From positions 1 to 64,000 of the forward strand of contig NZ_SMYO01000016.1 in the NCBI RefSeq assembly GCF_004358205.1: a stretch of DNA of 64,000 nucleotides, written 5' to 3'. Source of the stretch: Bacillus salipaludis (GTDB taxonomy: Bacteria; Bacillota; Bacilli; Bacillales_B; DSM-18226). Below the pieces are notes generated by a model. The model was not told where the DNA came from and searched no databases. It saw nothing but the letters and a program-made list of their open reading frames with translations. Positions 4,350 to 60,828 of the stretch are shown piece after piece. The first letter of the stretch is position 1. Every line of letters starts with the position of its first letter. Position numbers and translations under genes: made by a program.

Positions 4350-4538
4350 TTAAATTTTAACCTCGTCCTCTTCTTGATTTTCTTTAGATGAAGCAACTTC
4401 TGAATATACCTTTACCTGGTCTTTAAGTAAGTCTATTAATTTTTTGGCTTCACTATACCACTTCGAGGATATGGTGCGTTGGCTCCTTCTTTGAAGAAGC
4501 CAATCTCGTGACGCGTCCAAAAAATTCGCTTCGCTCAT
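4350..4538 (-). CDS. Small hypothetical protein of the mobilisation module
   Basis: A 62-residue frame, N-terminally basic (SRDWLLQRRSQRTISSKWY) with an acidic tail (KENQEEDEVKI). I do not recognise the family. It is transcribed with the DUF3847-type gene and its start lies 30 bp from the start of the divergent relaxase remnant, a spacing typical of mobilisation regions where oriT is located. No certain oriT sequence could be identified in the gap. Confidence 0.5.
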   Translation of the reverse strand: MSEANFLDASRDWLLQRRSQRTISSKWYSEAKKLIDLLKDQVKVYSEVASSKENQEEDEVKI

Positions 4539-4568
4539 GTATTAAAAAGAATGTGGGGTGTAATATCG

Positions 4569-6565
4569 ATGGCTATCTATCATTTCTCAAATCAGATCAT
4601 TTCAAGAAAAAAACAGCAAAATACAATAGCTGCTGCAGCTTACCGTTCTGGTGAAAGATTGATAGATGAAAGAACAAATGAGGAGAAGTTCTATAAAAGA
4701 AAAGTGAAGCCAATCACTCATATTCTTGCGCCACGCCATGCACCTCAATGGGTTTATGATCGCCAAAGACTCTGGAATGAGGTAGAGTTAAAGGAAAAAC
4801 AATAGAATGCTCAACTTGCACGTGAAATAAATGTTGCATTACCAAAAGAGTTATCAAATGATGAACAAGAGAACTTAGCTATTGAATTTTGTAAGGAAGT
4901 TTTTGTAAACGATGGAATGGTAGCTGATTTATCCATCCACCGAGATAATGAGGAAAATCCACATTTTCATGTAATGTTAACGATTCGTCCATTTAATGAA
5001 GATGGGACCTGGGGAAATAAACAGGTGAAAGTAAAAGAAATAATGGAAGGTAAAGAACAAGTTAAAGCATTACATACAACTGATTGGAATACCAAAGAAA
5101 AATTGGTTTATTGGAGAAAACAGTGGGCTCATTATGCAAATCGTTATTTAGAGAAAAATGGTTTTTCTGAGCGAATTACTCACTTGTAAAATAAAGATAG
5201 AGGGATTGAAACACTGCCAACTATCCATGAGGGATTTGTTGCAAGGCAGATGCAAAACAATGGAAAAAATCCGACAGGATTCAAATAAATCAATCAAGGA
5301 AAGAATACAACAAAACTATTATTGAACTCAAAGAAGCGAAGAAAGAAAAACAAAGGAAAGAAAGAGAAATAAAATTTGTTCGTCGCTTTACTCCTATAGA
5401 AAAAAAGCAACTGCGTGAAACAGCGAAAAGCTTAAGAATGTTTGTAAACTATGAAAATATTAACACCAGAAAATTGCAGTTGGAAAAATGGCAGTCCCGT
5501 ATTGAATTTCAAAAGGATACTATTGATAAATATAAAATATTAAATCGAATCGAAAAAGAAACGGATATCTTAAACCAAGATGAATTTATATTAGAAATGG
5601 AGGCCAATCGATTTCTGGATAAATATTATCCAAAATTAAATAAAAGTGAGCTAACAAAAGATCAGAAAATAGAAGTTGTTGATATTACAGTTTCGCAAAA
5701 TAAATTGTTAAGCACTAATGATATTGAAACTGTATATCGTGAATTAGAGAAAAAACAGATTGAAAATGATCTAAATATTTTATTAAATAACCGACCTAAA
5801 TTTGTTTTAGCATTGCAACAGGTAATACAAAATGCGGGGATGAAATTTGAACAATTAAGAGTAAAAAGTGGAATTAATTTTGCTGATCCAGCTTCCATAA
5901 AAAATGCTTCTGATAAAGATTTAAAACAAATGCAATTTTTATTGAAACAAAAGGAAAATATGAACAAATCTCTAGAGTTGATAAATCGACTTTATGATTA
6001 TCAGCTTAGTGAAATGTATCCTAATTGGGATGGGCGAAAATATTTAACCTTAGAAGAAAAAGAATTATTTGTGATGGCAGAAGAGTTTTATGGAAAAAAT
6101 TTAACTCCTAAAGATTTCATTAACCCACCAAGAAAATATTCAAAAGAAGAACAAAAGGAGATTATCACTTATTTGTATTCCATTCAAAACAATAAAATTG
6201 AATCAAATAGTGATGATCCGAACTATCAATTTTTACAAAACAAATATCCTGATTTCCAGTTGCAAAATCAATCTTATAAACAAATGTTTTACAATGAATG
6301 CATGAGATATAGGGATGAAATTGGCCAAGATACAATTGATCAACTTCAACGTATATTTAATGTTCTACCATATAAAAATGTCGAGGAATTACAATCGGAT
6401 AGTCTTAGCAATTCCATACCAAATTCTAAACTCATTTCCTCTAATGGTTTCGACTTCTTTTCGATTCTTGAAAGTGCAATTCGTGAAGCCGATCGAAAAT
6501 GGAGGGAAGACGAATTTGAACAGCGGAACAAGAAAAAGAAAAGACAAAAGGGGATGGATCGTTAG
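4569..6565 (+). pseudogene. MobA/MobL-family relaxase, disrupted by two stops and a frameshift
   Basis: Starts MAIYHFSNQIISRKKQQNTIAAAAYRSGE, the canonical N-terminus of MobA/MobL relaxases, which nick oriT and pilot plasmid DNA. The histidine motif HRDNEENPHFHV appears near nt 4938. The reading is broken by an amber stop at 4803-4805 (KEK-Q-stop-NAQLARE), an ochre stop at 5187-5189 (THL-stop-NKDRG), and a frameshift between about 5200 and 5290. After that, frame 2 continues uninterrupted (SRKEYNKTIIELKEAKKEKQ) to 6565 as the charged C-terminal region. Total length would be about 665 aa, normal for the family. Two of the lesions are single-codon changes, so this is decay in place, not truncation. 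Confidence 0.85.
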
Positions 6566-8728: not shown

Positions 8729-8889
8729 TTTCTGATTCCACTTCCCTCTGATATCTATTTTTACACTCCTAGATGTGTGTTACCTGTTAAATTTTAGTGT
8801 CCACAATTATCCAAGTCAATAAAAGAAAACTTTAAGGGTAGCTCTTCTTTTTTGAGGAAAATTTTTCTATTGTTCCTGTTTCTTTTATT

Positions 8890-9115
8890 AAAATTCTAAT
8901 TTCAATATGTGTTAAATTCAAATTATTATTATATGTATGCTCGGACAAAATATGATAAAAAATCCAAGTGCCATCACCAAACGGTTAGCAAGGAAGAGGG
9001 ATTAGTCAGGATAATAAAAATAGAAGATAAAAAGTGAAGACTTGAAACAGAGGAAATTTTTAGCCATGCAGAAAACGTTTGGAACGAGGACGTCAGACCG
9101 TAAGGCCAACGCTGA
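8890..9115 (+). repeat. Dispersed repeat family D1, copy 1
   Basis: Shares a long, diverged stretch with 32265-32522 and 60534-60828: it opens with ATTCTAATTTCAATATGTG, then GCTCGGACAAAATATGAT, CCAAACGGTTAGCAAGG and CAGGATAATAAAA, ending near GACCGTAAGGCCAA. This copy contains the longest open stretches: a frame from 8933 (MYARTKYDKKSKCHHQTVSK) that meets a TGA, and a second frame (MQKTFGTRTSDRKANAEES) running to 9227. The block FG-(S/T)-R is also readable in copy 3, hinting that the repeat derives from a protein-coding gene. The 3' part differs from the other two copies. Confidence 0.6.
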
Positions 9116-9265
9116 GGAATCAAATACTAATGTTAATATTAATAATGGGATTAATCCTAGCGTTAAATTCGACAAAATTGAAGATCTAAAGAAAAGCTCC
9201 AGGAGGAAATCCCAAGAAAAAAACTGACGACAGTTATGAAGGGAAATTATTTTAAATGCAAGCTA

Positions 9266-14662: not shown

Positions 14663-14734
14663 CTCAACTTTGATCATTCCTGTCTAAATGATATATAACT
14701 TTCTGTACATTTTTTATAGACTAACTTTTAGATG

Positions 14735-14960
14735 GAAATCAAAATAGAAAAAAAGCGAAAAAACTGATATTTTCGTAGTATTAAAAAACTTACGAGTTTT
14801 GGAACAAATAATAAAATGTGTTTTTTAACTTTGTTTAGCAATCGAGCCAAATTGTTGAAGAACGTATTTAAGAAAATTAGATATATTATTAAGTAATAGA
14901 ATAGATTGTGAAGTAATTGTATTTAAACGAACTGTCAGTTGAATAAGAACTCATAATTTT
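14735..14960. repeat. Dispersed repeat family D2, copy A
   Basis: Shares with 20082-20270 the blocks AGATGGAAATCAAA, AGAAAAAAAGCGAAA, ACGAGTTTTG, AACTTTGTT, AGCAATCG, TAAGTAAT and CTGTCAGTTGAAT/GTGTCAGTTGAAT in the same order. A shorter, weaker match (TTTTCGTAGT...AAAACTTACAA) lies at 22205-22255. Function unknown; in the second case it precedes a very small hydrophobic ORF. Confidence 0.5.
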
Positions 14961-19986: not shown

Positions 19987-20081
19987 GTTTGAAAATCTTC
20001 TTTGTATTCAAAATTCCGGCATACCCTTCTACACGTTATTTTCGTTGACAAAAAAACGACAAAATAAATGAAAAGTAACAG

Positions 20082-20270
20082 ATGGAAATCAAATTAGAAA
20101 AAAAGCGAAATTTAAAAAACATACGAGTTTTGTAACAAATACTAAATGTGTACATTTTAAACTTTGTTCAGCAATCGGGCCATTTAACAATAAGTAATTG
20201 TGTAAATTTGGAAAATTTGAAATAATTAGTAGTGTCAGTTGAATTAAGTGATTGTTAGAGGATTAGTCTA
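20082..20270. repeat. Dispersed repeat family D2, copy B
   Basis: Ordered matches to 14735-14960 (AGATGGAAATCAAA, AGAAAAAAAGCGAAA, ACGAGTTTTG, AACTTTGTTCAGCAATCGGG, GTGTCAGTTGAAT). It is followed within 50 bp by a short hydrophobic ORF. A faint partial match to its tail (GAAAATT...TTTGAAATAATT) occurs at 21740-21770, upstream of another small membrane ORF. Confidence 0.5.
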
Positions 20271-26885: not shown

Positions 26886-29800
26886 ATGAGAAAGAGAAAG
26901 TTTAGTATTTTCATTGTTTTAGTTCTTTTGTTTACACTTCTGTATAGTCAGAACCCAGTTAAAACGAAAGCAGCAACAGGTAGTTCTTTAAATGAAAAAG
27001 TATTAACAACCACACCAATAGAAGCACAATTTGAACCGTCGGAACAAACGCATTGGTATAAAGTGATGCCCACAAATGAAGATGTTTCTAAGAACACTCA
27101 CTTTCGCATCAAATTGCAGTCAGAGCAGGAGTTAAACATTTCTGTTTATTCTAGCTTAGAAAATGCACTGAACGATAATACATTTGACCGTTATATGGGA
27201 TACACTTATTCAAACGAGCCTGCACAAATTGAATTTCCGCTTGCATGGACGGGACCATATTACATAAAGGTTGAAAATTATAATAGTGGATTAGAAGAAG
27301 GTGAAAGTAAAGAATTTGAGGGCGAAGAGGGACCTGATTCTCCGCCGATTGTTAATCCGGTATATACCATCAGCTATGAAGGGGATACACTCGCACCATC
27401 CGACTCACCTATCGGGGATCAGTGTCCGGCTGAATTAGGTGTTTTAAATAGAGAAAACGGCAAAGGGATTCTTAAAGATTTACGAATGATTCGGGAAACT
27501 CTATTAGCTAATACTGATAAAGGAAGAGAATTCACTTCTTTATATTATAAAACAGCGCCGTTTTTAGGCACAAAAATGATTGTCAATAAAGCACTACGAG
27601 AAGATGTATATAAAAACTTGGTTCAATTGAAAGGTTTATTTGCAGATCTAGCTGAAAACGGGGACCAAAGCTCCTATATCATTAAAACCAATGAACAACA
27701 AGCAATTAACAACTTGTATAAGATTTTACAGGAATCAGTTCCTGGATTTCTGAAAAAACAAATTGAGCAAAAAGCTGCTGAGATAGGTATTTCAAATTTA
27801 ACTAATTCTAGTTTGTCTTCTGTTATTGAAAAACTTGATTTAAAAACTTCCAATGACAAGGAAGAAAACCGTATGATCGTGAAATTAAAGGAAGGAAAAC
27901 CGCTTAGTCAATTCAAAACGAAAGTTAAGGCTTACGGATTAAGATCTATTAATCCATTAAATGTGAAACAAACTAATAATCATAATCTACTAGTTGTCGA
28001 AATGAATAAAACAAATCAATTTAAAATTGCTATTAAACAAATTGCAAACCTTCCAGAGGTTGAATTTGTTGAACCGATTCAGCAATATAAAGCCCTAACA
28101 GCCGATACACAGTACAAATACCAGTGGTCGCTACATGAAAATGAAGGAAATACTGGGCCTGATAAGATCAATAAAGATGCTAATATCCAGTTTGAAAAGC
28201 TACAAAATTTAATAAACGGCCAATTAAAAGATACTGTCGTTGCTGTAGTTGATACAGGTGTTGATCATACACTTGCAGATTTACAGGACAAGGTTCAATC
28301 TGATCAAGGCTATAATTTTATTAATCGGACAAATAATATTATGGATGATAACGGACACGGTACCCATGTGTCTGGAATTATCGCGGCCTCGGCTAATAAT
28401 GGGTATTCAATGGCAGGTATCTCTCCTTCAGCTAAAATCCTGCCGGTAAAAGTTTTGGACTCATCAGGAAGTGGGGATACAGAACAGATTGCTCTCGGTA
28501 TTTTATATGCTGCTGATCATGGGGCAAAAGTGATTAATCTAAGTCTTGGCGGTCCATATAGCCGCACAATTGAATATGCTTTACAATATGCAAACAAAAA
28601 AAATATCACCGTTGTCGCTGCATCCGGCAATGATGGGTTTGAAGAAGTTTCCTATCCAGCCTCTTCAAAATATGTAATCGCTGTAGGTTCAACGAATCGT
28701 CTAAATGTTGTATCAGATTTCTCTAATTACGGGGAGGGGTTGGATCTTGTTGCTCCCGGAAGTGACATACCAAGTCTTGTTCCTAATGGAAATGTGACGT
28801 ATGCAAGTGGTACTTCAATGGCTGCGCCACATGTTTCAGCAGTTGCAAGTTTGCTGCTTTCGCAACAACCGAACTTAACACCATCTGAAATTCAATATTT
28901 ATTGACGAAAACAGCAAATGATATTAGCTTCAATGAACAAGATAATCCGAACGGAGATTTTCCGGGAACCCCGGATCAAGAATATCCGCAACCAACGAAA
29001 GAGGTTGTTCCCGGATATGATCAAGTATCTGGCTGGGGGAATTTGAATGCCTATAGTGCGTTTAGTGCGGTGGCATTAAACGCAAATGTAGACCGTCTAT
29101 TAAACAATCAGACTAAAGTTACCGGAACAGCCATCAATGGATCTACCGTAAAAGTTTTAGATGGAGATACAGAATTAGGCGAAGGTAAAGCAACAGCATC
29201 GGGGACATTTACTGTTAATATTCCAGTTCAAAAATCGGGAAAACTATTGAATGTGATAATAAGTACCAAAGGTGTTGACAACGGGCCGGAAACAACTTTT
29301 AGAATAGCAGTAGAAAAAGCACCTGAAAAGCCAACTGTCCAACCTTTATCAAACATTGATGAGTATCTAACTGGCAACGCAGCCCCCAAATTAACTGTCA
29401 ATATCAAGGATTCTTCTAGAAAAGTCATTAAAACGGGCAATACAGATGATTCTGGGGCGTTTAAAATAAAGATTGACAAGCAAAAGGGAAATACTGTATT
29501 GTATGTAACTGTTTCAGATGACCAGAACAGGGAAAGCAGTGAAGTAAAGGTTACAGTAAAAGATGTCATTCTTCCCAATTCGCCTAAGGTCAAACCAGTT
29601 AGTGATCGGGACGAAGTCATTAAAGGAAGTTCAGAAGCAAATGCCCAAATAACTGCCAAAGTGAATGGGAAAGTAATTGGCACAAGTAAGGCTGATAGAA
29701 CAGGCGCGTTTGAAATCAAAATTAAAAAACAAAAAGCAGGCTATGAAATAGCAATCACTGCAAAAAATGCAGCAGGAAATAGCAGTAAAGAAACAAAGAT

Positions 29801-30320
29801 AAAGGTGATTGATAAAACGCCGCCGGCTACACCAAAAGTGAACGCTGTCGATGATAATAGTACAGTTATAAAAGGAAAAACAGAGGCAAATGCTAATGTT
29901 TCAGCAAAAGTGAATGGGAAAGTAATTGGCACGAGCAAAGCTGATAAAACAGGTGCGTTTAAAATTAAAATTAAAAAACAAAAAGCATACACTATAATAG
30001 CTGTCACTGTAAAGGATGCAACAGGTAATAGTAGTAAAGAAACAAGAATTACAGTGATCGATAAAACGCCACCAGCTACACCTAAAGTAAACGTTGTTAA
30101 TGATAAAAGTACAGCTGTAAGAGGAAAAACAGAAGCAAATGCGACTATTACAATTAAAGTAAACAACAAAACAATTGGAATAGGAAAGGCAAATAAACAC
30201 GGCAATTTTTTTGTGGGAATCAAAAAACAAAAAGCAGGAACTGTGTTAGTTATTAAGGCAAAGGACAAAGCTGGAAATGTAAGTAAAGGCATAAAAACAA
30301 CTGTAAAAAAGTCAAAATAA
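26886..30320 (+). CDS. Secreted S8 subtilisin-like protease with C-terminal Ig-like repeats
   Basis: A 1144-residue exported protease. Signal peptide (1-29), a PPC-like beta domain (about 35-150), an extra helical region with a pro-domain-like part (RMIVKLKEGKPLSQFKTKVK, about 330-400), then the catalytic domain with Asp in VVDTGVDH, His in NGHGTHVSGI and Ser in GTSMAAPHVSAVASLL. From about 735 follow four to five Ig-like modules of about 85 residues, the last three nearly identical (KPTVQ/PKVxxVxD...GKTEANAxVxxKVNGKVIGTSK...). The repeats end in a short basic tail without LPXTG, so it is secreted or wall-associated by charge. GGGGGTAAG precedes the ATG. Repeat identity at DNA level makes copy-number change likely. 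Confidence 0.93.
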   Translation: MRKRKFSIFIVLVLLFTLLYSQNPVKTKAATGSSLNEKVLTTTPIEAQFEPSEQTHWYKVMPTNEDVSKNTHFRIKLQSEQELNISVYSSLENALNDNTFDRYMGYTYSNEPAQIEFPLAWTGPYYIKVENYNSGLEEGESKEFEGEEGPDSPPIVNPVYTISYEGDTLAPSDSPIGDQCPAELGVLNRENGKGILKDLRMIRETLLANTDKGREFTSLYYKTAPFLGTKMIVNKALREDVYKNLVQLKGLFADLAENGDQSSYIIKTNEQQAINNLYKILQESVPGFLKKQIEQKAAEIGISNLTNSSLSSVIEKLDLKTSNDKEENRMIVKLKEGKPLSQFKTKVKAYGLRSINPLNVKQTNNHNLLVVEMNKTNQFKIAIKQIANLPEVEFVEPIQQYKALTADTQYKYQWSLHENEGNTGPDKINKDANIQFEKLQNLINGQLKDTVVAVVDTGVDHTLADLQDKVQSDQGYNFINRTNNIMDDNGHGTHVSGIIAASANNGYSMAGISPSAKILPVKVLDSSGSGDTEQIALGILYAADHGAKVINLSLGGPYSRTIEYALQYANKKNITVVAASGNDGFEEVSYPASSKYVIAVGSTNRLNVVSDFSNYGEGLDLVAPGSDIPSLVPNGNVTYASGTSMAAPHVSAVASLLLSQQPNLTPSEIQYLLTKTANDISFNEQDNPNGDFPGTPDQEYPQPTKEVVPGYDQVSGWGNLNAYSAFSAVALNANVDRLLNNQTKVTGTAINGSTVKVLDGDTELGEGKATASGTFTVNIPVQKSGKLLNVIISTKGVDNGPETTFRIAVEKAPEKPTVQPLSNIDEYLTGNAAPKLTVNIKDSSRKVIKTGNTDDSGAFKIKIDKQKGNTVLYVTVSDDQNRESSEVKVTVKDVILPNSPKVKPVSDRDEVIKGSSEANAQITAKVNGKVIGTSKADRTGAFEIKIKKQKAGYEIAITAKNAAGNSSKETKIKVIDKTPPATPKVNAVDDNSTVIKGKTEANANVSAKVNGKVIGTSKADKTGAFKIKIKKQKAYTIIAVTVKDATGNSSKETRITVIDKTPPATPKVNVVNDKSTAVRGKTEANATITIKVNNKTIGIGKANKHGNFFVGIKKQKAGTVLVIKAKDKAGNVSKGIKTTVKKSK

Positions 30321-32264: not shown

Positions 32265-32522
32265 AAAGAAATTAAAATTTTAATTTCAATATGTGCTAAA
32301 TTCAAAATATAATAATATGTACGCTCGGACAATATATGATAAATAATCCAAGTACTACCACTAAACGGTCAACAGGGAAAGGGTATTAGGCTGGATAATA
32401 TAATATAAGAAAAAAGGTAATGACACGGAATCGAGGAGGGGAGACCGTACGGTCAAGAAAAACAGAAAAGGAATTGTTTCCATATAATTATTATTTAATA
32501 TCGCCCGTGAAAAGGACGGATA
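32265..32522 (+). repeat. Dispersed repeat family D1, copy 2
   Basis: Matches copy 3 (60534-60828) over its whole length apart from an internal deletion of about 40 nt, and copy 1 over its left two thirds. Right end (CGCCCGTGAAAAGGACGGAT) falls inside the coding sequence of the secreted protein at 32520-33185 and supplies a chimeric, unrelated C-terminus for it. Carries a palindromic ACCGTACGGT. Confidence 0.65.
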
Positions 32523-33185
32523 CTCAGCCACTTGATTGTACGTCATACCGATTTGAATTTGATTATATTCAGCTAAAGTAATTCCTTCTCTTTTCCACGG
32601 AGAAAAATATCCATTTAACGCTTCTTTTACATGTTTTTTCCAAATTGTTATGGGTTTTACTTTGTTATATGGAACATACACTCTTGCTGTCTTCGTTTTC
32701 TTAACCCATTTTTTGCCGATTTTCTTATAATCCATGTACTTTATTGAACCTTTATACCATTTAGAATTAACTTTAGTAAGAAGGGTATCTTTTGATATTT
32801 GTATTTTGTAAATTTTTCCTTTACTTGTATGTGCGATAAGGGCGCTAGTAAGACTTGCTTTTGTGTAAACTTGTGTTTTGACAGAAGTTTTATATCCCGA
32901 GGTGCGATCATAATCTACATATTTCACGTCGTAACCGTGAATACTGTTATCATCGTCATAATAATATAAATCAGGTAAATCATATAAATTTCTAGCATAA
33001 ACTGTTTTTCCTCTTGAATCTTGAACATGTAATAATTTACCGTTTGGGCTAAGTGAGAATATAGAGTTTGCTTTAACTGTAATAGTATCAAATGAACTTG
33101 CTTCCGTTTTATTTGCTGTACCAACTCCCAGCAATATTCCTAACGATAATGCCCCAGTAAGGAAGGCCCTGCCGATCTTTACCAA
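32520..33185 (-). pseudogene. Secreted protein with BamE-like end, 3'-truncated by repeat D1
   Basis: Starts at a TTG (33185) 7 nt after GGGGGAGA. Signal peptide (LTGALSLGILLGVGTANKTE), then a Tyr/Asp-rich domain (ARNLYDLPDLYYYDDDNS), SH3-like segments and the opening of a C-terminal DUF3862/BamE-like domain (EYNQIQIGMTYNQVAE). Exactly there the homology stops, and the open frame continues to 32361 through repeat D1 as an unrelated hydrophobic tail. The normal domain would need about 60 more residues. The protein is extracytoplasmic; function unknown, possibly inactive. Confidence 0.65.
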
Positions 33186-37949: not shown

Positions 37950-38708
37950 ATCCGCTTACTTTTACGATTAAATAATCTTCTTACCGGTAAAAATTTATTG
38001 TGTTGCTGCTTTAAATGTTCAGAATCCATTTGAATATATTTTCTAGTCGTCTGAATATCAGCATGGTCCAGGATTTTCTGTTACGTGAATAAATCACCGC
38101 CGTTTAGAATGTAATTTCTTGCAAATGTATGTCTAAATATATGTGGATGTAGTTTGGGTATTTCCAATTTTTTTTTAACCCATTTAATCTTCTCCTAAAG
38201 GCGTCGGCAGTAAAATCATCCCCGTAGGCATTCATAAAGATCCGGCAACCTTCGCTAAAATATTGTTCAGTTTCATCTAAAAGCTGTTTTAACCTTTTGG
38301 ATATTTCCCGGCTAATTGGTATATCTCTATTCTATCTATTTTTTGCAATTGAGGAAGGAACCAAAAGGGTATTCTGATGGAAGTCAACTTGCTCAGCGGT
38401 TAGTGACATTGCTTCATTGATCCGTAACCCCGTGTCTAATAATAGCAACACTAACGTCTTATCTCGCCACTGAGCAAATTGTTTATCATCATATGAATCT
38501 AGTATCATATCAATTTCTTCGTCCGATAGCCCTTGGACTTCTTCATGTGCGTCATCTTTAACCAAAGGAATATTCCTAGATGGATTTTTATTAATGATAT
38601 CTTCCTCAAATAAAAAACGGAAAATTGCTTTTAAATTACGCAAATGAATATTGATGGTATAAACCGATAATCCTTTTTTATTCCTTTCCCGTTGTTCATC
38701 ACCTGATA
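37950..38708 (-). pseudogene. Tyrosine integrase, 3' part (interrupted by Tn)
   Basis: Minus strand from the transposon edge: DEQRERNKKGLSVYTINIHL RNLKAIFRFLFEEDIINKNP (core-binding domain), LDTGLRINEAMSLTAEQVD (the catalytic Arg region), then KNR-stop-NRDIPISREISK (stop at 38336-38338), GCRIFMNAYGDDFTADAFRR RLN, and after frameshifts IPKLHPHIFRHTFARNYILN-like and LDHADIQTTRKYIQMDSEHL sequences that include the HxFRHTF and final Tyr boxes. The N-terminal part continues at 46632. Its own lesions plus the transposon make it dead. Confidence 0.75.
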
Positions 38709-38770
38709 GGGGTCACGTTACCAAAAGTGAAAAATTGTACGTTCAGACACAATTTAGACACATTTTATCC
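38709..38770 (+). repeat. Transposon left inverted repeat
   Basis: Pairs with 46570-46631 over about 62 bp with four mismatches. The first 38 bp correspond to the usual Tn3 terminal repeat; the match then continues with GACACAATTTAGACACATTT, longer than typical for the family. Confidence 0.9.
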
Positions 38771-38894
38771 AGTTACCTGTACGGTAAGACAAGATATAAA
38801 ATACGTAAGATTATAATAAATGATGAAAATATATCTTGGTAGAGCTGGCTAGGCCACGTCTATACGCAACCTGCCAACGATTTTAAGAGGCATT

Positions 38895-39488
38895 TTAGTG
38901 TGTAGATGTAGGTATATTTTCTTTCTGTTTCTTATATTCTCTCCATCGACGATAAAAGGTAGCTTCGCTTATATTGGTGATCTTACAGATCTCTTTTATG
39001 GGTTTATTCGTGGTTTCATGTAATTCGATTGCATGTTTGACACCGTCATGCCTTAAGGTAAACTTCTGTTTCTTCCCTTTGTATGTCCCTTTCCTTTTTG
39101 CAATCGCAATGCCAGCTTGTTGTTTTTCTTTGATCATCGTGCGATCGAGTTCACTAAACGCCGACATAACCGTTAAAATGAATTTTCCTGAAGGAGTTCT
39201 CGTATCAATCCCCAGATTCAATATGACCAAATGAATGCCATGTCCTTCTAACTCTTCAATGAGCTCTAACAACTGCTTTGTATTTCTTCCCAGACGATCC
39301 ATCCTTGTAACAATGAGTGTATCCCCTTTAACTAATCGATTCAGTAGTTGTTGCAATTCCTCTTTCTGATTTTGTACACCTGATACTTTTTCCTGAACAA
39401 TTCGATCTACGTTTGCATTTCGCAATTGTTCAATTTGTGAATCCAAGTTCTGATCAAACGAAGAAACACGCGCATACCCAAAAATCAT
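38895..39488 (-). CDS. tnpR: Serine resolvase of the Tn3-family transposon
   Basis: A 197-residue serine recombinase. IFGYARVSSFDQNLDSQIEQ holds the catalytic serine (RVSS), MDRLGRNTKQLLELI the DRLxR motif, and FSELDRTMIKEKQQAGIAIA KRKG the end of the catalytic domain. A C-terminal helix-turn-helix follows (KPIKEICKITNISEATFYRR W). It resolves transposon cointegrates at res. It starts at ATG 39488, 60 bp from an inverted repeat that is a likely res subsite, and is transcribed away from the cargo. Length and motifs are normal for TnpR. Confidence 0.92.
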   Translation of the reverse strand: MIFGYARVSSFDQNLDSQIEQLRNANVDRIVQEKVSGVQNQKEELQQLLNRLVKGDTLIVTRMDRLGRNTKQLLELIEELEGHGIHLVILNLGIDTRTPSGKFILTVMSAFSELDRTMIKEKQQAGIAIAKRKGTYKGKKQKFTLRHDGVKHAIELHETTNKPIKEICKITNISEATFYRRWREYKKQKENIPTSTH

Positions 39489-39544
39489 AAAATCCCTCCC
39501 AAAAACACGTAATCAAAGACAAGTGTATATGATAGTTAGATTGT

Positions 39545-39610
39545 ACAATAAAATCAACACTTGAGCAATCTATCAATAGAGTATACCCTATTGATAGAAT
39601 AATAGTAATT
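39545..39610. promoter_or_regulatory. Putative res site core
   Basis: TCTATCAATAG and CTATTGATAGA form an 11-bp inverted repeat around AGTATACC, immediately upstream of tnpR. Subsites I-III could not be delimited by eye. Confidence 0.5.
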
Positions 39611-39800
39611 AGTCACTCAGTCCCTTACATGGATCTGCGCAACTATTCGTGTCAAAAGTGCGCAAAATAAAATGTAAAGTTACAAGCTGAAAAAATTGGT
39701 ACGAACCAGCGTAACAGAAACGTTCGTTTTTGTTGCGTAATTTAATAGTAAAGGCTACTTTAAAATGACGAAAAAGATTTGAAATTTAACATGAGTTTCA

Positions 39801-40388
39801 TTAAAGGAAATACTTACTCATGCCATTTTTAAATATAGGCAGGGTCTTAGTCACTAGCTCTTCTGGTGAAATAGGTCTTCCATCCTTATTCCATGTGTAT
39901 GCAGCTCCGTATATACTCCAACTTAGCATAGTAGATAGGGTTGTTACCAATTGTTTATCCTCTAATTCAATGGTATTTTTAGTTCCTTTTAGCATAAGAT
40001 CAGCTATTAGCTTCTGTAACTCTTCTTTAATTTTACTTTCTATAATAGTTCCTAAAGAGTTATAACCTTTAGGACATAGGTCGCTTAACTCTTTATGGTG
40101 ATCACACATGGCTAGAAAAATATTTGCAATGACTTTTTCATTGAATCCCTCGTGATCATTTAGTCTTTTTTTCAATTTGTCTATAAAAGTATTGGTGATT
40201 GTAGAATGTAATAAATCAAATTTATCGTCAAAGTGCGCATAAAATGTAGCGCGGTTAATAGTAGCCTTTTCTGTGATATCACGTACCGTTATATTGTTGA
40301 AATCTTTTTCACTAGCTAACGAAAGAAAAGAGTCTACAATCAATTGTCTTGTACGAAGTATTCTCGGATCTTGTTTTGGCATAATCAA
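39801..40388 (-). CDS. TetR-family regulator of the azoR cargo
   Basis: A 195-residue TetR/AcrR protein: LIVDSFLSLASEKDFNNITV RDITEKATINRATFYAHFDD is the N-terminal helix-turn-helix, followed by a helical ligand domain. It is divergent from the azoreductase gene with a 317-bp gap. Two palindromes with TGTT/AACA arms lie in the gap and are likely operators. By position it should repress itself and azoR until an electrophile or dye binds. The inducer is not readable from sequence. Confidence 0.85.
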   Translation of the reverse strand: MIMPKQDPRILRTRQLIVDSFLSLASEKDFNNITVRDITEKATINRATFYAHFDDKFDLLHSTITNTFIDKLKKRLNDHEGFNEKVIANIFLAMCDHHKELSDLCPKGYNSLGTIIESKIKEELQKLIADLMLKGTKNTIELEDKQLVTTLSTMLSWSIYGAAYTWNKDGRPISPEELVTKTLPIFKNGMSKYFL

Positions 40389-40446
40389 TCTGTTCTTCTC
40401 CTTTTTAGGTACATAATGGTGTTTAAAAGCGACAATGTTAATAGAG

Positions 40447-40464
40447 ATGTTGTGTAAACAACAT
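40447..40464. promoter_or_regulatory. Candidate TetR operator 1
   Basis: ATGTTGT-GTAA-ACAACAT, a perfect inverted repeat, 59 bp upstream of the tetR start. Confidence 0.6.
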
Positions 40465-40517
40465 ATTAGCCATTTTGATGGTTGTTAATAGTTCTTTTTC
40501 ATCTTATCATCAATTAT

Positions 40518-40531
40518 ACAACGCGCGTTGT
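40518..40531. promoter_or_regulatory. Candidate TetR operator 2
   Basis: ACAACGCGCGTTGT is a perfect 14-bp palindrome in the same gap, sharing the ACAAC/GTTGT arms with operator 1. Confidence 0.6.
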
Positions 40532-40574
40532 TTAAATAACACATGTTTTTGTTTGAGGGTGTTGATTCAGCAAA

Positions 40575-40640
40575 AATTGTAGAGATCATTTAGAATCATA
40601 CCGAAAATATTGTTCAGATGAAACGTGTAAATTCTTTTAA
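40575..40640 (+). pseudogene. C-terminal scrap of a second dsbA-like gene
   Basis: Reads HLESYRKYCSDETCKFF-stop, parallel to the end of the intact DsbA protein downstream (LDDYCSDGTCEF-stop). DNA downstream of both stops is also alike (AATGA/GTATTCAAAAAA). This is the footprint of a tandem dsbA duplication around azoR, later mostly deleted. Confidence 0.6.
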
Positions 40641-40704
40641 TGAGTATTCAAAAAATGTTTGGGAATAAAAAACATTCATCAAAATCATAAAGGAGACAAT
40701 TATC

Positions 40705-41325
40705 ATGTCAAAAGTATTATTTGTTAAAGGAACACCTCAAAGTGAGGAGCAATCAAGAAGTACGCAAGTTGCAAGAGCATTTATCAATGAATATAAGGAA
40801 GTAAATCCAACGGATGAAATAATTGAGGTGGATGTCTATTATGCAAATGTGCCATTAATTGATGCTGATTTTTTAACTGGACAAAAGAAGTTAAGAAGTG
40901 GGGAAGCGCTAACAGATGTTGAAGCACAGAAAGTAGAAGCAGTTAATGCATTCACAAAGCAATTTATGGAAGTAGATAAATACATCATTCAGTCTTCAAT
41001 GTGGAATTTAGGAATCCAACCGTTATTAAAAGCCTATTTTGATACAATCATGAGTGCTGGAAAAACGTTTAAATATACACCAGAAGGTCCAGAAGGATTG
41101 ATGAAAGGGAAAAAAGCAATCCATATTCATGGAATGGGAGGGTTTTATTCGCAGGCAATTGGAATGGAGCATTCCGATTCTTACGTGAAAGGTGCGCTAA
41201 AGTTTGTTGGGATTGAAGTGGTTCCAACGATTTTTGTTGAAGGTATTGACTATGATCCAACTAAAGAAGAAGAAATTGTTGCTGCAGCAATTGAAAAGGC
41301 AAAAGCGGTAGCACGAACTTTTTAA
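40705..41325 (+). CDS. azoR: FMN-dependent NADH-azoreductase
   Basis: A 206-residue flavodoxin-fold enzyme. KVLFVKGTPQSEEQSRSTQV at the N-terminus is the FMN phosphate loop, SMWNLGIQPLLKAYFDTIMS AGKTFKY is the highly conserved AzoR central block, and IHGMGGFYS contacts the flavin. These cytosolic enzymes reduce azo dyes and quinones by two-electron transfer and protect against electrophiles. AAGGAGA precedes the ATG. It is divergent from a TetR gene and followed by dsbA, as in Bacillus electrophile-response clusters. A long inverted repeat after the stop (GTGGGATTA ... TAATCCCCTCAC) may be its terminator. Confidence 0.92.
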   Translation: MSKVLFVKGTPQSEEQSRSTQVARAFINEYKEVNPTDEIIEVDVYYANVPLIDADFLTGQKKLRSGEALTDVEAQKVEAVNAFTKQFMEVDKYIIQSSMWNLGIQPLLKAYFDTIMSAGKTFKYTPEGPEGLMKGKKAIHIHGMGGFYSQAIGMEHSDSYVKGALKFVGIEVVPTIFVEGIDYDPTKEEEIVAAAIEKAKAVARTF

Positions 41326-41572
41326 AAAAGAGCATTGGTGGGATTAGTTAAAAAGATTTTTATTAACATAATCCCCTCACAGTAGACTAGTACAAAAAGA
41401 ACGTTAAATTGTACTTAATATTGGAGGGGATTTTTCTATAGAATCAAGAGGACAAAAATTTAAAAACTATTCTTGCTAAGTAATATCAAATTACGTTATA
41501 CAATTAAAACTGTCAAGCGTAATAGGGAATAGATAAAACACATTCATCAAAATAATAAAGGGGGAACATATG

Positions 41573-42286
41573 ATGAAAGTAGAAATTTGGTCTGATTTTG
41601 TTTGCCCGTTTTGTTATATTGGCAAACGTCAATTTGAAATAGGGTTAGAACAGTTTAAACATAAAGAAGAGGTAGAAGTCTTATTTCGTAATTTTCAATT
41701 AGATCCATATGCGAAAAAAAATACAGGAATGGATATCCATCAAGTAGCATCTTCCAAGCATGGTATCCCATATGAAAAAGCAAAAGCAAGAAACAATCAA
41801 TTGAAACAGAAAGCAAAAGAGGTTGGGTTAGATTATCAATTTGATACAATGATTCCTACGAATTCATATGATGCACTTCGTCTTTCTTATTATGCAAAAG
41901 AGAAAGGGAAGATACAGGAGTTTATGGAGCGTATTATGAAAGCTCATCTCACGGATTCACTAGATATCGGTGACCATGCAACACTTGCTCAACTTACAAG
42001 TGAGATAGGTCTTGATGGCAACGAAGCTTTGGATGTTTTAGCAAATGATAAATATAGCGAGAATATTGCAGCTGATAGAGCCGAGGGATCAAAAATTGGG
42101 ATTCAGGGCGTGCCCTTTTTCGTAGTGAATGACAAATATGCCATCTCAGGAGCACAACCTAGCCAAGTATTTTTAGAAATATTACAACGGGTTTGGAAAG
42201 AAGAGTACGCGAATGCTAAGGTTGAAGAGCATAAATTAGAGCCGTCGCTCGATGATTATTGTTCAGATGGAACATGTGAATTTTAA
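41573..42286 (+). CDS. DsbA-family (FrnE-type) thiol oxidoreductase
   Basis: About 237 residues. KVEIWSDFVCPFCYIGKRQF carries the CPFC active site, and GIQGVPFFVVNDKYAISGAQ the cis-Pro loop, both typical of cytosolic FrnE/YwbO-type DsbA proteins. No signal peptide, so it acts inside the cell, probably on thiols damaged by oxidants or diamide-like compounds. An extra C-terminal pair, YCSDGTCEF, adds two cysteines. ATG 41573 fits the GGGGG site better than 41570. The 5' leader (CATTCATCAAAAT.ATAAAGG) is almost the same as that of azoR, so both may be co-regulated. It forms with azoR a detoxification pair. Confidence 0.88.
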   Translation: MKVEIWSDFVCPFCYIGKRQFEIGLEQFKHKEEVEVLFRNFQLDPYAKKNTGMDIHQVASSKHGIPYEKAKARNNQLKQKAKEVGLDYQFDTMIPTNSYDALRLSYYAKEKGKIQEFMERIMKAHLTDSLDIGDHATLAQLTSEIGLDGNEALDVLANDKYSENIAADRAEGSKIGIQGVPFFVVNDKYAISGAQPSQVFLEILQRVWKEEYANAKVEEHKLEPSLDDYCSDGTCEF

Positions 42287-42673
42287 TGAATATTCAAAAA
42301 AAGATACAGAAATCTCAAAAGAATAATATAGTATTTCAAGGCTCCGGTATTGTTGTTCTAAATCTTGAAGTAGTGCCAACATCATTTTGGAATTTTTTAT
42401 CCTATGCAGATTTTAAGAAGGTAATGGACTGTTTTTGAGTCCGCTAAAGACTTTTCAAAAAGGTTTTAGATTTGTTTTGATGGAACTTTGTTTATGGGGA
42501 ATAAGTTTCGGAACTAAAAACTATCGATTTTCGGTACATTTTAAACTAACTAATTTTTAGTTCCAAAACACTTGTATTGAACCTAATCGGTGCCTGTGTT
42601 ATATGACTACATTAAATACCACTTTATAATGAATCGTTTATTTCCAAATAAAAAATCAAAGGGGTTTCGCGAT
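42287..42673. other. Spacer with a short ORF scrap
   Basis: Contains a decayed stretch reading GIVVLNLEVVPTSFWNFLSY ADFKKVMDCF to a stop near 42438 that I cannot assign. A palindromic region (GGAACTAAAAACTATCG ... TTAGTTCC) at 42510-42565 may be a VOC gene regulatory site. Confidence 0.35.
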
Positions 42674-43117
42674 ATGAAAAACACAATTTTTCAAGGCACA
42701 ATAGAGCATTCAGGATTTGTAGTACCCAATATCGAAGTAGCTGTTGAATTCTTCACTAACATTTTGGGTTTTGAAGTCTTGTTCCGGCCAAGACGGATGC
42801 AGTTTGAAGACGATAGTTTAAAAAGGTACTTTGGGGTTCACGATAATTCAGTTGTAGAAGGGGCGGCATTTTTGCAATACGGCGGTAGAAAGATCGAACT
42901 GGTTCAATGGTCGACGCCAGATCAACAGAATGTTCACCTAAAACCCAGTGATATCGGTGTAGCTCATCTAGCTATTACAGTTACCAATTTAGAAGAGGCT
43001 TTGAAATATTTTGCAGAACAGTCTGATGTTAAAGTTAGAGAGCTGAGCCCTCTTGGATTTTTCTATATAACAACTTCATGGGGGATGGAGATTCAAATAA
43101 TGAAACAGAAGTTTTAA
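42674..43117 (+). CDS. VOC-superfamily protein (glyoxalase/dioxygenase-like)
   Basis: A 147-residue protein with two beta-alpha-beta-beta-beta modules. IEHSGFVVPNIEVAVEFFTN ILGFEV starts the first, and VAHLAITVTNLEEALKYFAE the second; His in the first strand (EHSGF), Glu in KIELVQW, His in VAHLAI and Glu in GMEIQI are the expected metal ligands. Members include glyoxalase I, fosfomycin-resistance enzymes and ring-cleaving dioxygenases. Substrate unknown; within this cargo, detoxification of an electrophile is plausible. ATG 42674 lies behind AAAGGGG; an upstream in-frame ATG at 42590 lacks a ribosome site. Confidence 0.8.
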   Translation: MKNTIFQGTIEHSGFVVPNIEVAVEFFTNILGFEVLFRPRRMQFEDDSLKRYFGVHDNSVVEGAAFLQYGGRKIELVQWSTPDQQNVHLKPSDIGVAHLAITVTNLEEALKYFAEQSDVKVRELSPLGFFYITTSWGMEIQIMKQKF

Positions 43118-43208
43118 CTAAAGACCTTCTACTACGTTAAACTTGGGGCAATGGGGGGAAAGAAGACGAATTCCAACCGTCCCTTCTGCTCTTCCAGAAA
43201 GAGTTCCT

Positions 43209-43484
43209 TCATGTAGCCGCCGTCGGCAAAGTTAATTGATCGGAAAAATGCCCATTGAATTCAATAATTATATTAGCTTTAATCTCTTCGGGTCTAATTC
43301 CGAGGAGATTGGCGAGACAAGCTGGATTTACGCAGCGAAAAAGTAAGTTCCAGGAAATTCCGAAATAGAAAAGAAAATAATTACGGTATGACGAATGACG
43401 TAATAACCATTCCTTCATTTCATCAATCTTTTCAAGTGAACGAATTGGCTCTTTTGCTCCAGGCTTTCGCCCTCCTTTCGACAT
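43209..43484 (-). pseudogene. Integrase N-terminal scrap inside the transposon
   Basis: MSKGGRKPGAKEPIRSLEKI DEMKEWLLRHSSYRNYFLFY FGIS matches the N-terminal SAM-like part of small tyrosine recombinases, which usually continue into a GLRISD box. Here it departs into an unrelated sequence (RPEEIKANIIIEFNGHFS). It could be a decayed TnpI-like gene of the transposon or of a previous insertion. Confidence 0.45.
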
Positions 43485-43559
43485 GTCAATAACCTCCTAA
43501 CTTTCTGATGTAAACCATTATATGTAAAACTTAATTACATACATAAGGGGACCATACAT

Positions 43560-46523
43560 ATGGCGAGACAAGAACTTCTTACAGAAGCACAACGAAAAGA
43601 GTTTTATGATGTTCCAGAGTATGTAAGTGATCGCGATGCGATCAGGTACTATACGCTTTCCGATGAAGAATTAAATATTATCTACAAACAGCGTGGTGCT
43701 GCAAATCGATTGGGCTTTGCTATTCAAATTGCTTATTTAAGTTTCCCAGGTCGCTCTTTAACACCTGGAGAGAAAATTCCAGAGTATCTCGTGCGTATTA
43801 TCGCCAATCAGCTTGGGATTGTGCCTTCTGCTATATATAACTATGCACAAGGGCGTGATGTAACACGACGGGAACATCTTAGTAAAATTCGAAAAGAGTT
43901 TCATTTTCGCACTTTCACAATTCGAGAATACAGAGAATTAGCACAATGGCTTCTTCCGACTGCAATGGGAACTGATAAAGGTTATTTACTAGTGAAGGCC
44001 CTTATTATGGAAATGCGCAAGCGAAAGATTATTTTGCCTGCTATATATGCAGTGGAACATTTAGCATGGTCGGTTCGTGAACGGGCACAAAGACGGACAT
44101 TCAAACAACTGGTGCAAGGTCTTTCCCCTCATCAAGAGTGGCAATTGGATAAATTACTGCTTGTGAGTCAATCAGGGAAACAATCTGACTTATCCTGGCT
44201 TCGCCAGCCGCCTGGCGTTGTTTCTATTAAAAACTTTCATGAACTGATGGATCGATTGGAGTATATTCAAAAGCTAGCTCTACCATTAGACAACGGACGG
44301 GAAATACATCAGAATCGATTGTTGCAAATGGCACGTGAAGGCTCACGTTATTCTGCTCAGCATCTCTCCAGGTTTCATACCTTAAAACGACATGCCACCT
44401 TAATGGCATTCCTCATTCACATTTATGCATTTTTGACAGACCAGGGGCTACATATGGGTGAGAAACTAATTGGAAGAATCTTTAATCGTGGAGAGAAAGT
44501 ACATAAGGAAAATTTTCAGAAAGATGGTAAGGCTATTAATGAAAAAGTGCGGCTGTATGCAAAAGTAGGAAAAGCGTTAATTGAAGCAAAAGAAGCGAAT
44601 TTGGATCCATTTGAATCCTTACAATCTATTATTCCGTGGGAGCAATTTATCCAAACCGTGGAACAGGCGGAAACATTATCACGACCAGTAGAGTTTGATT
44701 TTCTAGATCTTTTGGATAATCATTATGGGCAATTGCGTAAATTCGCACCACGGTTACTGAGAACTTATACTTTTAAGGCATCTCATGCGAGTCAATCTCT
44801 CTTTCAAGCTATTGAACTATTACGGGAAGCGAATCGTTCAAAGAAACGGAAAATCCCTGAAATAGCTCCCACAAGTTTTATCAAGCAAAAATGGACTAAA
44901 CATGTATTTAAAGAAGATGGCATTGACCGTCATTATTATGAGTTCAGTGTACTATCAGAGTTATGTAATCATCTTCGGTCTGGCGATATGTGGGTGACAG
45001 GTAGTAAACAATACAAAGACTTCGAAGAGTATCTCTTACCTCCGTCCAAATGGAATGCGGTGAAACAAACAGATGGAATTCCTTTGACCATTCCAACCAA
45101 AGTAGATCAGTATCTACAAGAGCGAATGGAACAGATGGAAGAGCAAATCAAGCAGGTAAGCTATCTCGTGGAAACACAACAGTTACGGGATGCTACGGTA
45201 TATGCAAATAAAATTCAGGTGAAATCCTTAGCAAAGGTGGTTCCGGATGAAGTTAAGGATATAACAAGACTGATTTATGATGTATTGCCACGTATAAAAC
45301 TAACGGAATTACTGATAGAGGTGGATCGTTGGACGGAATTTAGTAAATATTTTGTTCATCTTCATACAGGAGCACAACCAAAAGAGAAGTCTGTGTTATT
45401 TGCGGCCATTATGGCGGATGGAATTAACCTAGGTCTTACCAAAATGGCGGATGCTTGCCCCAATATCTCGTATGCGCAATTGGCTTGGATATCTGATTGG
45501 TATATCCGGGATGATAGCTATAACAAAGCACTTGGGGCCATTGCAAATTTCCATAACAAGCAGCCGTATTCTTCTTACTGGGGAGATGGATCCACCTCCT
45601 CTTCTGACGGTCAATACTTTCGAGCTGGAGGCACCTCAAGTCCACTAGCACAGGTGAATGCAAAGTACGGTCGAGATCCAGGTGTGAGTTTTTATAGTCA
45701 TATCTCAGATCAATATGATCCTTTTTATGTCCAAGTTATTAGTTCCTCTGAAGAAGCACCACATATTATTGACGGTTTGCTTTATCATGAAACAGATTTA
45801 CAGATTGAGGAGCATTATACAGATGCAGCGGGCTTTGTAGATCATGTTTTTGCCATGTGTCATATGCTAGGATTTCGGTTTTCCCCTCGAATTAAAACAG
45901 TGAAGAATAACAATCTTTATACATTTAATCGATCCTTACAAACACCGTTAAATTTTATGATTGGTGGAACCATCCAAGTTAAAAAGATCAAGGAACATTG
46001 GGACGATTTATTACGATTAACAAGTTCTGTCCGGATCGGAACTGTCACAGCTTCTCTTATATTAAAGAAGCTTGCTTCTTACCCTCGTCAAAATGGACTA
46101 TCAGTGGCTTTACGTGAAATGGGACGTATTGAAAGGAGCCTATACACACTGAAATGGATCCAAAGTCCTGAACACCGGAGACGAGTACAAATAGGACTAA
46201 ACAAAGGAGAAGCGAAACATGCGTTGGCCCGTGCTGTATTTTTTAATCAGTTAGGCGAGGTACGAGACCGCTCGTATGAAGATCAGTTACATCGAGCAAG
46301 TGGCCTTCAACTTATTGTTTCAGCTATTGTATCTTGGAACACGGTATACATTGAACGAGCAATCGAAATGTTACGTTCAAAAGGTATGGAGATTCCAGAG
46401 GCATACTTGCAGCACATATCCCCGTTGGGCTGGGAGCATATTACGCTAACGGGAGATTATGTGTGGAACCTAAAACAGGATGGAACTGTTAATCAATTAA
46501 GACCACTACGGGTCAAAAAGTAA
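43560..46523 (+). CDS. tnpA: Tn3-family transposase
   Basis: A 987-residue transposase, the normal length of the Tn4430-type branch. It opens ARQELLTEAQRKEFYDVPEY with the Tn3 N-terminal DNA-binding domain (AAN RLGFAIQIAYLSFPGR), and the catalytic domain contains WGDGSTSSSDGQYF (first Asp, D676 or D683), HYTDAAGFVDHVFAM (second Asp, D755) and NKGEAKHALARAVFFNQ (Glu, about E884). It binds the terminal repeats and makes replicative cointegrates. No stop or frameshift. A hairpin AGCCGGTTCC/GGAATCGGCT lies between its stop and the right end of the element. Confidence 0.95.
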   Translation: MARQELLTEAQRKEFYDVPEYVSDRDAIRYYTLSDEELNIIYKQRGAANRLGFAIQIAYLSFPGRSLTPGEKIPEYLVRIIANQLGIVPSAIYNYAQGRDVTRREHLSKIRKEFHFRTFTIREYRELAQWLLPTAMGTDKGYLLVKALIMEMRKRKIILPAIYAVEHLAWSVRERAQRRTFKQLVQGLSPHQEWQLDKLLLVSQSGKQSDLSWLRQPPGVVSIKNFHELMDRLEYIQKLALPLDNGREIHQNRLLQMAREGSRYSAQHLSRFHTLKRHATLMAFLIHIYAFLTDQGLHMGEKLIGRIFNRGEKVHKENFQKDGKAINEKVRLYAKVGKALIEAKEANLDPFESLQSIIPWEQFIQTVEQAETLSRPVEFDFLDLLDNHYGQLRKFAPRLLRTYTFKASHASQSLFQAIELLREANRSKKRKIPEIAPTSFIKQKWTKHVFKEDGIDRHYYEFSVLSELCNHLRSGDMWVTGSKQYKDFEEYLLPPSKWNAVKQTDGIPLTIPTKVDQYLQERMEQMEEQIKQVSYLVETQQLRDATVYANKIQVKSLAKVVPDEVKDITRLIYDVLPRIKLTELLIEVDRWTEFSKYFVHLHTGAQPKEKSVLFAAIMADGINLGLTKMADACPNISYAQLAWISDWYIRDDSYNKALGAIANFHNKQPYSSYWGDGSTSSSDGQYFRAGGTSSPLAQVNAKYGRDPGVSFYSHISDQYDPFYVQVISSSEEAPHIIDGLLYHETDLQIEEHYTDAAGFVDHVFAMCHMLGFRFSPRIKTVKNNNLYTFNRSLQTPLNFMIGGTIQVKKIKEHWDDLLRLTSSVRIGTVTASLILKKLASYPRQNGLSVALREMGRIERSLYTLKWIQSPEHRRRVQIGLNKGEAKHALARAVFFNQLGEVRDRSYEDQLHRASGLQLIVSAIVSWNTVYIERAIEMLRSKGMEIPEAYLQHISPLGWEHITLTGDYVWNLKQDGTVNQLRPLRVKK

Positions 46524-46569
46524 GAGAATGAACAAAAGCCGGTTCCTTAACCTTAACGTACAGGGAATC

Positions 46570-46631
46570 GGCTAAAATGTGTCTAAATTGTGTCTAAACG
46601 TACAGTTTTTCACTTTTGGTGACGTGACCCC
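46570..46631 (-). repeat. Transposon right inverted repeat
   Basis: Reverse complement of the left repeat with four mismatches in 62 bp; ends in CCCC at 46631, followed by the TGATA duplication. Confidence 0.9.
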
Positions 46632-46930
46632 TGATAAGGTAAACGGTCATTTTTTAGATAGTTAATATAATCCCGTAAAATTGAACTTTTGATTTCATCA
46701 ATGTATTCAATATCTGGATTTAACCAATCCCGGAAATATCGAACTGTATCATAATAACCTTTGATGGTACTGTTCCGTAATCTCTCTGCCTCCTTTGCTT
46801 TAATAAAGATTTCGACAGCGTCATGGAGTGTATATCGGTCATCCGGTGTATGTCTGTCATGACGAATCTGTCGGACCCTCGTTTGATTTTTTTTGTCCTC
46901 TTTGTGCAACAAATGTACGTCACATAAGTA
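46632..46930 (-). pseudogene. Tyrosine integrase, 5' part
   Basis: Reads DDRYTLHDAVEIFIKAKEAE RLRNSTIKGYYDTVRYFRDW LN and EIKSSILRDYINYLKNDRLP Y up to the transposon edge, the N-terminal SAM-like core-binding domain of a tyrosine recombinase whose remainder is at 37950-38708. Removing the transposon and one TGATA does not restore the frame: LPY joins GDEQRER only with one extra base, so the gene was already frameshifted. The start is unclear (frame open to 47008). It is oriented away from the tRNA-Arg half 85-160 bp upstream. Confidence 0.75.
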
Positions 46931-60249: not shown

Positions 60250-60400
60250 TGCTTCAACAGTTACTTTACAACCAAGAGTCTCTAATCGTTTGATAGATTG
60301 CTTAATTACGATTTCTTTCTTTCGGCGGTCGAAGTAATACAAAGACATGTTGCTTTTTAGGGCTACTAATGGCGCAGTATAACAGAATGATCAGAACGGA
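60250..60400 (-). pseudogene. Transposase-like C-terminal tail
   Basis: Minus strand reads FCYTAPLVALKSNMSLYYFD RRKKEIVIKQSIKRLETLGC KVTVEAIA to a stop near 60250. The arginine/lysine-rich final helix and CKVTVE strand look like the tail of an IS transposase; the family is not certain. Confidence 0.4.
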
Positions 60401-60520: not shown

Positions 60521-60533
60521 CCAAACAAGACAT

Positions 60534-60828
60534 AAAATTCTAATTTCAATATGTGCTAAATTCACATTATTATTGTATGTACGCTTGGACAAAATTTGAT
60601 TTATAATCCAAGTACCACCACCAAACGGTCAGTAAGGGAGGGGTATCGGCAGGATAATAAAACAGAAGGAAAAATGTAAAAACACGGAACTAAGGTAACT
60701 TTTTAATCAAACAGCGTACGTTTGGATCGAGAAGGGGAGACCGTCGGCCAAGAAAAATAGAAAAAGGAATTGTTTCCTAATAATAATTATTTAAAACCGC
60801 CCGTGAAAAAGTGGATACTTACTTTTTG
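60534..60828 (+). repeat. Dispersed repeat family D1, copy 3
   Basis: Longest and most complete copy, about 295 bp. Shares its left two thirds with copy 1 and its full extent with copy 2, including the right end CGCCCGTGAAAA...GGATAC. Immediately to the right, an integrase frame begins without its own N-terminus, so this copy seems to have landed in or replaced the 5' part of that gene. Confidence 0.65.

Follow-up and report, generated by a model that had tools for sequence, protein, structure and literature searches.

A dispersed three-copy repeat made up of dead rtp loci that appear to retain Ter-like sites oriented as in a fork trap

Copies of the repeat and their descent from rtp

The stretch of DNA that we analyzed (64,000 nt; here called the window) carries three copies of a dispersed repeat, all on the forward strand. 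The original prediction of such a repeat was borne out: copy-versus-copy blastn gave E values of 9e-38 to 9e-48 (small local database), and the 21-mer TTTCAATATGTGYTAAATTCA, which was taken from the copies themselves, occurred 3 times with up to 3 mismatches, compared to 0.01 times expected from shuffles. Over its first 133 nt, the repeat aligns to copy 1 without gaps at 84% and 78% identity. The features are as follows.

8860..9236, + strand: copy 1, dead rtp-Ter cassette carrying a tail version of its own
8893..8921 (core 8896-8920), + strand: putative Ter of copy 1, at the same position relative to the rtp leader as in relatives
8985..9110, + strand: rtp 5' remnant of copy 1 with a 22-nt deletion, from alignment to intact rtp
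32271..32522, + strand: copy 2, dead rtp-Ter cassette in which the deletion is larger, from copy-versus-copy alignments and blastn
32277..32305 (core 32280-32304), + strand: putative Ter of copy 2, from the 21-mer search and a core conservation test
32455..32522, + strand: tail of copy 2, common to copy 3 and relative copy L004 and absent from the aligned intact rtp loci
60531..60819, + strand: copy 3, dead rtp-Ter cassette, from copy-versus-copy alignments and blastn
60537..60565 (core 60540-60564), + strand: putative Ter of copy 3, matching 18/25 consensus positions and the best match of a site matrix in the window
60647..60750, + strand: rtp 5' remnant of copy 3 with a 22-nt deletion, from alignment to intact rtp
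60750..60819, + strand: tail of copy 3, common to copy 2 and L004
60827..61205, + strand: 5' part of a tyrosine recombinase gene, starting ~8 nt past copy 3 (PF02899 SAM-like domain, E = 9.3e-5)

Copies 2 and 3 and relative copy L004 all terminate at CGCCCGTGAAAA..GGATACT, and alignment showed that the left ends vary among copies; the defined ends that had been proposed hold for the right end common to copies 2 and 3 but not for the left ends. As predicted, no terminal inverted repeats were found on the copies. An Rfam search of the repeat gave 0 matches, copy 3 had no match in plasmid DNA or phage DNA, and the head pattern occurred 0 times in viral contigs. The copy 1 open reading frame (ORF) had no Pfam match; the window copies are remnants and not members of the RTP family (PF02334).

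The identity of the repeat came from relatives. The head pattern, searched against 84,980 species genomes, matched six contigs, five of which are from Bacillaceae (G001 to G005; four labeled Bacillus sp. and one Neobacillus cucumis). A Flavobacteriaceae contig (L001) was rejected as a copy, having merely a 45-nt match and a 21-nt match. By DNA search, G003 has the most copies per genome (six match places, making five copies), and 7 of the 61 genomes in the genus of G005 matched, including a match of just 25 nt in G060 that we did not count. Pattern matches in G011, G057, and G061 were not cassettes by DNA search and were excluded; negative skew was seen at the two that were examined. The aligned copies have a common head of ~190 nt. 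In five Neobacillus-type relatives, the DNA of this head continues into rtp, which is intact in four of the five: G001 to G004 have an open frame of ~130 codons with no stops, and in G029 the frame is broken. RTP of G003 scores 148.1 bits (E = 1.7e-43) with PF02334 and also 28.0 bits with PadR, and it matches B. subtilis RTP (1f4k) from end to end (E = 2.2e-33). The intact copies in relatives reach the curated cut-off of the RTP family over the whole domain. Within the genus, RTP exceeds this cut-off in 7/61 genomes; G047 has RTP without a cassette match, and rtp is broken in G029 and G005.

At the level of sequence, these alignments demonstrate that the repeat copies descend from rtp. The small protein gene proposed as the origin of the repeat is rtp, as judged by the continuing frame in relatives, and the FG-S/T-R block, which had been taken for a coding remnant, consists of rtp codons followed by rtp DNA that is out of frame after the 22-nt deletion. 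The label of an unassigned repeat falls away, since in relatives the repeat matches a known gene that is conserved and sits in its usual context, the outcome that the prediction had named as counting against it. The original prediction missed that the conserved head resembles a Ter site and that the whole unit is an rtp-Ter cassette.

Compared with intact rtp, the identical 22 nt are missing from all four dead copies tested (copies 1 and 3 and relative copies L005 and L004), causing a frameshift in rtp; in copy 2, the stretch is gone inside the larger deletion. The tail of copies 2, 3, and L004 is absent from all four intact loci aligned, and copy 1 and L005 have in common a tail version of their own. 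The nearest relative of copy 1 is L005 (89.1% over 367 nt), and that of copy 3 is L004 (86.3% over 300 nt); copy 1 is 88.9% identical to G004:C11:136562-136186 across the entire 8860-9236, with unlike flanks. Given the shared lesion, the simplest reading is that a single rtp-Ter unit, dead by then, was duplicated into several places before the strains diverged.

Parts of the window are 90 to 98% identical to G004:C11 in changed order, and the host is probably a close relative of Bacillus sp. UNC438CL73TsuS30 (L005, G004). A relaxase remnant hinted that the window might belong to a large plasmid, but the entry for one of its proteins gives a longest contig of 6,261,405 bases, so the window is probably chromosomal. 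No RTP was found among the sparse matches listed on a 6.26-Mb contig. The relaxase gene (4454-6565, MobQ type) is apparently split into several frames, is a trace of plasmid DNA, and is 75% identical to Peribacillus plasmids carrying a RepN-like gene and 78% identical to G001:C1. Direct repeats at 14730-14815 and 20080-20146 flank ~5.3 kb that are missing at the matching place in G004:C11. A subtilase gene encoding Big_6 domains contains a tandem 249-nt repeat (29615-30112), and 38708-46632 is a probable Tn3-family transposon with 81-nt inverted ends (90% complementary) that carries a resolvase, a TetR-type regulator, a flavodoxin-fold protein, a DsbA-like protein, and a Tn3 transposase.

Two claims about genes beside the copies did not survive. 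The BamE domain said to be truncated at copy 2 found no support, as searches with ORF 32361-33185 (- strand) at E = 0.001 gave no Pfam match and, among proteins, returned only the ORF itself. The integrase after copy 3 had been described as lacking its N terminus; the N-terminal SAM-like domain is present, and the frame stops short of a catalytic domain, which means that the C terminus has been lost instead. This recombinase frame is 86% identical to G001:C1:459497-459126 and 83% identical to G005:C2, where the counterpart lies ~0.8 kb past the dead cassette of that genome. On the other side of copy 3, a second dispersed repeat of ~150 nt (60370-60529) ends within a few bases of the copy; it has 13 more places on G001:C1 and G002:C39 and none on the other contigs compared.

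The putative Ter site

A ter site has been described within the rtp promoter (PMC10331603 and PMC13220808). The cassette head lies upstream of rtp in G001 to G004 and G029, so that its putative Ter falls in the promoter region of rtp. In copy 3, the cassette head reads ATTCTAATTTCAATATGTGCTAAATTCAC. Against the B. subtilis Ter consensus KMACTAANWNNWCTATGTACYAAATNTTC (given in PMC3317982), the copy 3 site agrees at 18/25 specified positions, which is within chance for a 64-kb scan, and in a blind scan of the window with this consensus the Ter motif did no better than in random sequence. Since random sequence also reaches 18/25, the match alone proves nothing.

Its position adds support, as comparison with other rtp loci indicates. 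A forward Ter-like site upstream of rtp, defined as at least 19/25 matches located 85 to 325 nt before the conserved KxRAF codons of RTP, was present in 11 of 30 other loci, with two opposed sites in five and forward ones only in six. Matches at L078 (downstream) and L097 (at -457) were not counted among the 11, and 17 of the 30 loci had no site of at least 19/25. A matrix built from 16 of the Ter-like sites at other rtp loci, and thus outside the cassettes, ranked the cassette start at the top in 8 of 13 relative loci and second and fourth in two more. At three loci the cassette start fell outside the top five: L063 and L065, which have no Ter cassette, and L057, which has one. Scores at cassette sites were 6 to 15 bits, compared to 23.5 to 37.9 bits at the matrix's own training sites. 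In the window, the matrix placed copy 3 first, yet below the random mean maximum, and copies 1 and 2 were not among its top 12.

On the Cytobacillus plasmid pN497, a Ter-like site lies 170 nt before rtp and has the ATGTGC core seen in the cassettes; the site contains ACCATGTGCCAAATCTTC, with the same A-to-G change as in the window copies. Conservation of the core beyond that of the leader was modest in a post hoc test (P = 0.008 for copies 1 to 3 and 0.06 for copy 3 versus relative copy K) and gave P = 0.27 on six copies that had not been found by the core pattern.

Direction of the copies and location of intact rtp

A fork that meets the B half-site first stops, and one that meets the A half-site can proceed (as reviewed in PMC10331603 and PMC13220808). 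The GC skew of the window is positive, being weak or slightly negative in only 2 of 31 subwindows. We take the right-hand ATGT..AAAT part of the cassette Ter to be its B half; given the positive skew, forks should travel rightward through the window and, at each of the three copies, encounter the A half before the B half.

The same direction was found throughout the dead copies. GC skew in the Ter direction is positive on either side of 8/8 dead copies, which is what a fork trap requires. Among all 15 copies, skew in the Ter direction over 10 kb on each side is positive at 14 (6 of the 7 rtp-bearing copies), and with only the 10 kb upstream considered, it is positive at 15/15; the 15 are not independent cases, as copies 1 to 3 all lie in the window and relative copies I and J share DNA. 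The broken rtp of L015 (G005), which has no Ter, was excluded from the direction count. Around the dead copies, the strand of the Ter direction holds ~72% of the long-ORF length, and a gene-like bias alone would yield 8/8 about 7% of the time. On G002:C39, two cassette copies, one of them dead, point in opposite directions and lie on opposite skew arms.

Intact rtp lies within ~2 kb of a skew flip in three of four cassette genomes (G002, G003, and G004).

G003:C138: intact rtp at 63.7-64.1 kb, flip at ~65 kb
G002:C39: intact rtp at 135.6-136.0 kb, flip at ~136-138 kb
G004:C4: intact rtp at 343.7-344.1 kb, flip at ~345 kb
G001:C1: intact rtp at 352.7 kb, flip near 410 kb, i.e., ~58 kb off

Most intact rtp copies in relatives are thus located at a terminus. 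The dead copies are situated away from skew flips. Two of the four broken long rtp copies are at a flip, namely, copy I (beside copy J) and copy L in G029 (upstream, +0.14; downstream, -0.06); the other two are copy G, at a contig end, and a Ter-less one on G005:C18, and the broken copies on G003:C192 and G005:C18 showed no skew flip. In G003, the next long ORF after rtp is xerS (406 bits, NCBIfam), and in G004 a xerS-like recombinase candidate lies one ORF further from rtp. Topoisomerase IV genes are also close to rtp (ParC of G004, 1164 bits; ParE identified by eye). The rtp loci of G003 and G004 look like chromosome termini. With pN497, which has xerS ~4 kb after rtp, these two loci may represent a terminus module. 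A search with the B. subtilis dif sequence found none in the window and matches in 3/61 genomes, one of which has a cassette, there on another contig.

Two of the contigs look like large Bacillaceae plasmids with rtp near the replication terminus. G001:C1 (585 kb) and G002:C39 (151 kb) each have one skew minimum and one maximum, and no overlap was found between the ends of either contig. At both minima lies a gene for a 372-aa protein with relatives on 18 plasmid records, two of them B. subtilis at ~25% identity, and no family in Pfam or NCBIfam. We infer that it is a RepN-like initiator, the role of RepN being taken from PMC6751061. The distance of rtp from the point opposite this gene is 1.6% (G001:C1) and 2.0% (G002:C39) of the contig. 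The Rep-like protein was considered as the reason for the distribution of the cassettes and rejected: it occurs in 8/61 genomes, with RTP in 3 of these, and is missing in G003 to G005.

RTP relatives occur on 16 plasmid records, and the six that were examined gave mixed results. One was rejected as a mislabeled chromosome piece; two Paenibacillus plasmids with an RTP-like gene had neither Ter nor skew flip at the gene; and one of three Bacillaceae plasmids (50 kb examined in each) had a forward Ter-like site upstream. RTP-like genes are also present in the Brevibacillus phages Jenst and SecTim467 (records KT151955, NC_028805, and KT151957).

Possible origin of the copies and relation to known systems

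The repeat is, on the evidence of its sequence, explained as dead rtp loci that retain Ter-like sites oriented as in a fork trap. We think it probable that the copies are duplicated, decayed rtp loci whose putative Ter sites may still serve in such a trap. Each copy would comprise a Ter in the rtp promoter position, the rtp leader, roughly the first 44 rtp codons, and then an unrelated tail. An already dead unit would have been copied to several places, with the Ter site as the part still potentially useful. RTP encoded by an intact rtp at the terminus would occupy the Ter sites of the dead copies; a fork coming from the origin would reach the weak A half-site first and pass, and a fork that had gone past the terminus would reach the strong B half-site first and stop. 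We infer that RTP would bind these sites, that forks would be arrested, and that this strain presumably continues to produce RTP.

Alternatively, the copies may be fossils only, i.e., products of rtp duplications in a strain that has since lost RTP, with the sites as neutral debris in a rearranging region. RTP exceeds the cut-off in merely 7 of the 61 genus genomes and is broken in G029 and G005, none is among the matches listed on a 6.26-Mb contig, and the region is rearranged relative to G004, all of which fit this reading. Yet the close relative G004 retains an intact rtp at a skew flip, and the direction is uniform at 8/8 dead copies. We regard loss of function as a serious possibility but tend to doubt it.

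A nonautonomous mobile element that captured an rtp fragment and was moved by the enzyme of another element seems unlikely. Such an element would be compatible with five copies bearing the same lesion at different places in three genomes, with a right end common to three copies, and with pieces of tyrosine recombinase genes near copy 3, copy F, and copy D (the last by translation only). The original prediction also favored a mobile element, but the copies lack terminal inverted repeats, their left ends differ, and their direction is nonrandom. The empty-site comparison proposed there could be made at one junction with G004, where the other side is rearranged; it revealed no clean empty site and no target duplication. 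Finally, it is very improbable that the head serves a PadR-like regulator as an ordinary operator and is no fork barrier, as the protein scores 148.1 bits as RTP versus 28.0 bits in PadR and 3/4 intact loci are at a skew flip, although that PadR score and the two Paenibacillus plasmids with RTP-like genes but neither Ter nor skew flip are in its favor.

Returning to decayed rtp loci that may still act in a trap, we tentatively suggest a wider scheme, on which we place rather little confidence. Fork-trap sites might multiply as repeats in this lineage: a dead rtp-Ter unit would be copied, selection would retain the right-pointing copies, and the trap would grow by duplicating its own control locus, with the same unit also marking the terminus of large plasmids opposite the plasmid initiator gene. 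We know of no account, having searched open-licence papers, of how a fork trap acquires scattered sites. In open-licence papers we found neither Ter sites spread on recognizable rtp scars nor rtp near the terminus of large plasmids. The Ter-like sites described here bear the scar of their source gene, so that birth order, direction, and loss are readable from sequence, and the location of rtp near the terminus of apparent large Bacillaceae plasmids bears on the origin of the RTP system.

RTP/Ter itself is already known. Like the B. subtilis trap, the system seen here has a full-length RTP homologue, a Ter-like site in the rtp promoter position, several sites pointing one way per replichore, and a terminus location for most intact rtp copies. 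Unlike that trap, the cassettes have a diverged Ter core (ATGTGCTAAAT), and their extra sites bear rtp scars, which we did not find described for B. subtilis in open-licence papers. The cassettes resemble MITE-like and other nonautonomous repeats in being short, dispersed, and now noncoding and in having a right end common to three copies, but they differ in having no inverted ends or visible target duplication and in having a known replication gene as their source. Tus/ter fork traps, which have been proposed to be domesticated from plasmids (PMC6549158), do the same job with a protein and a site unrelated to RTP/Ter, and the RTP gene, too, is found on both large plasmids and chromosomes.
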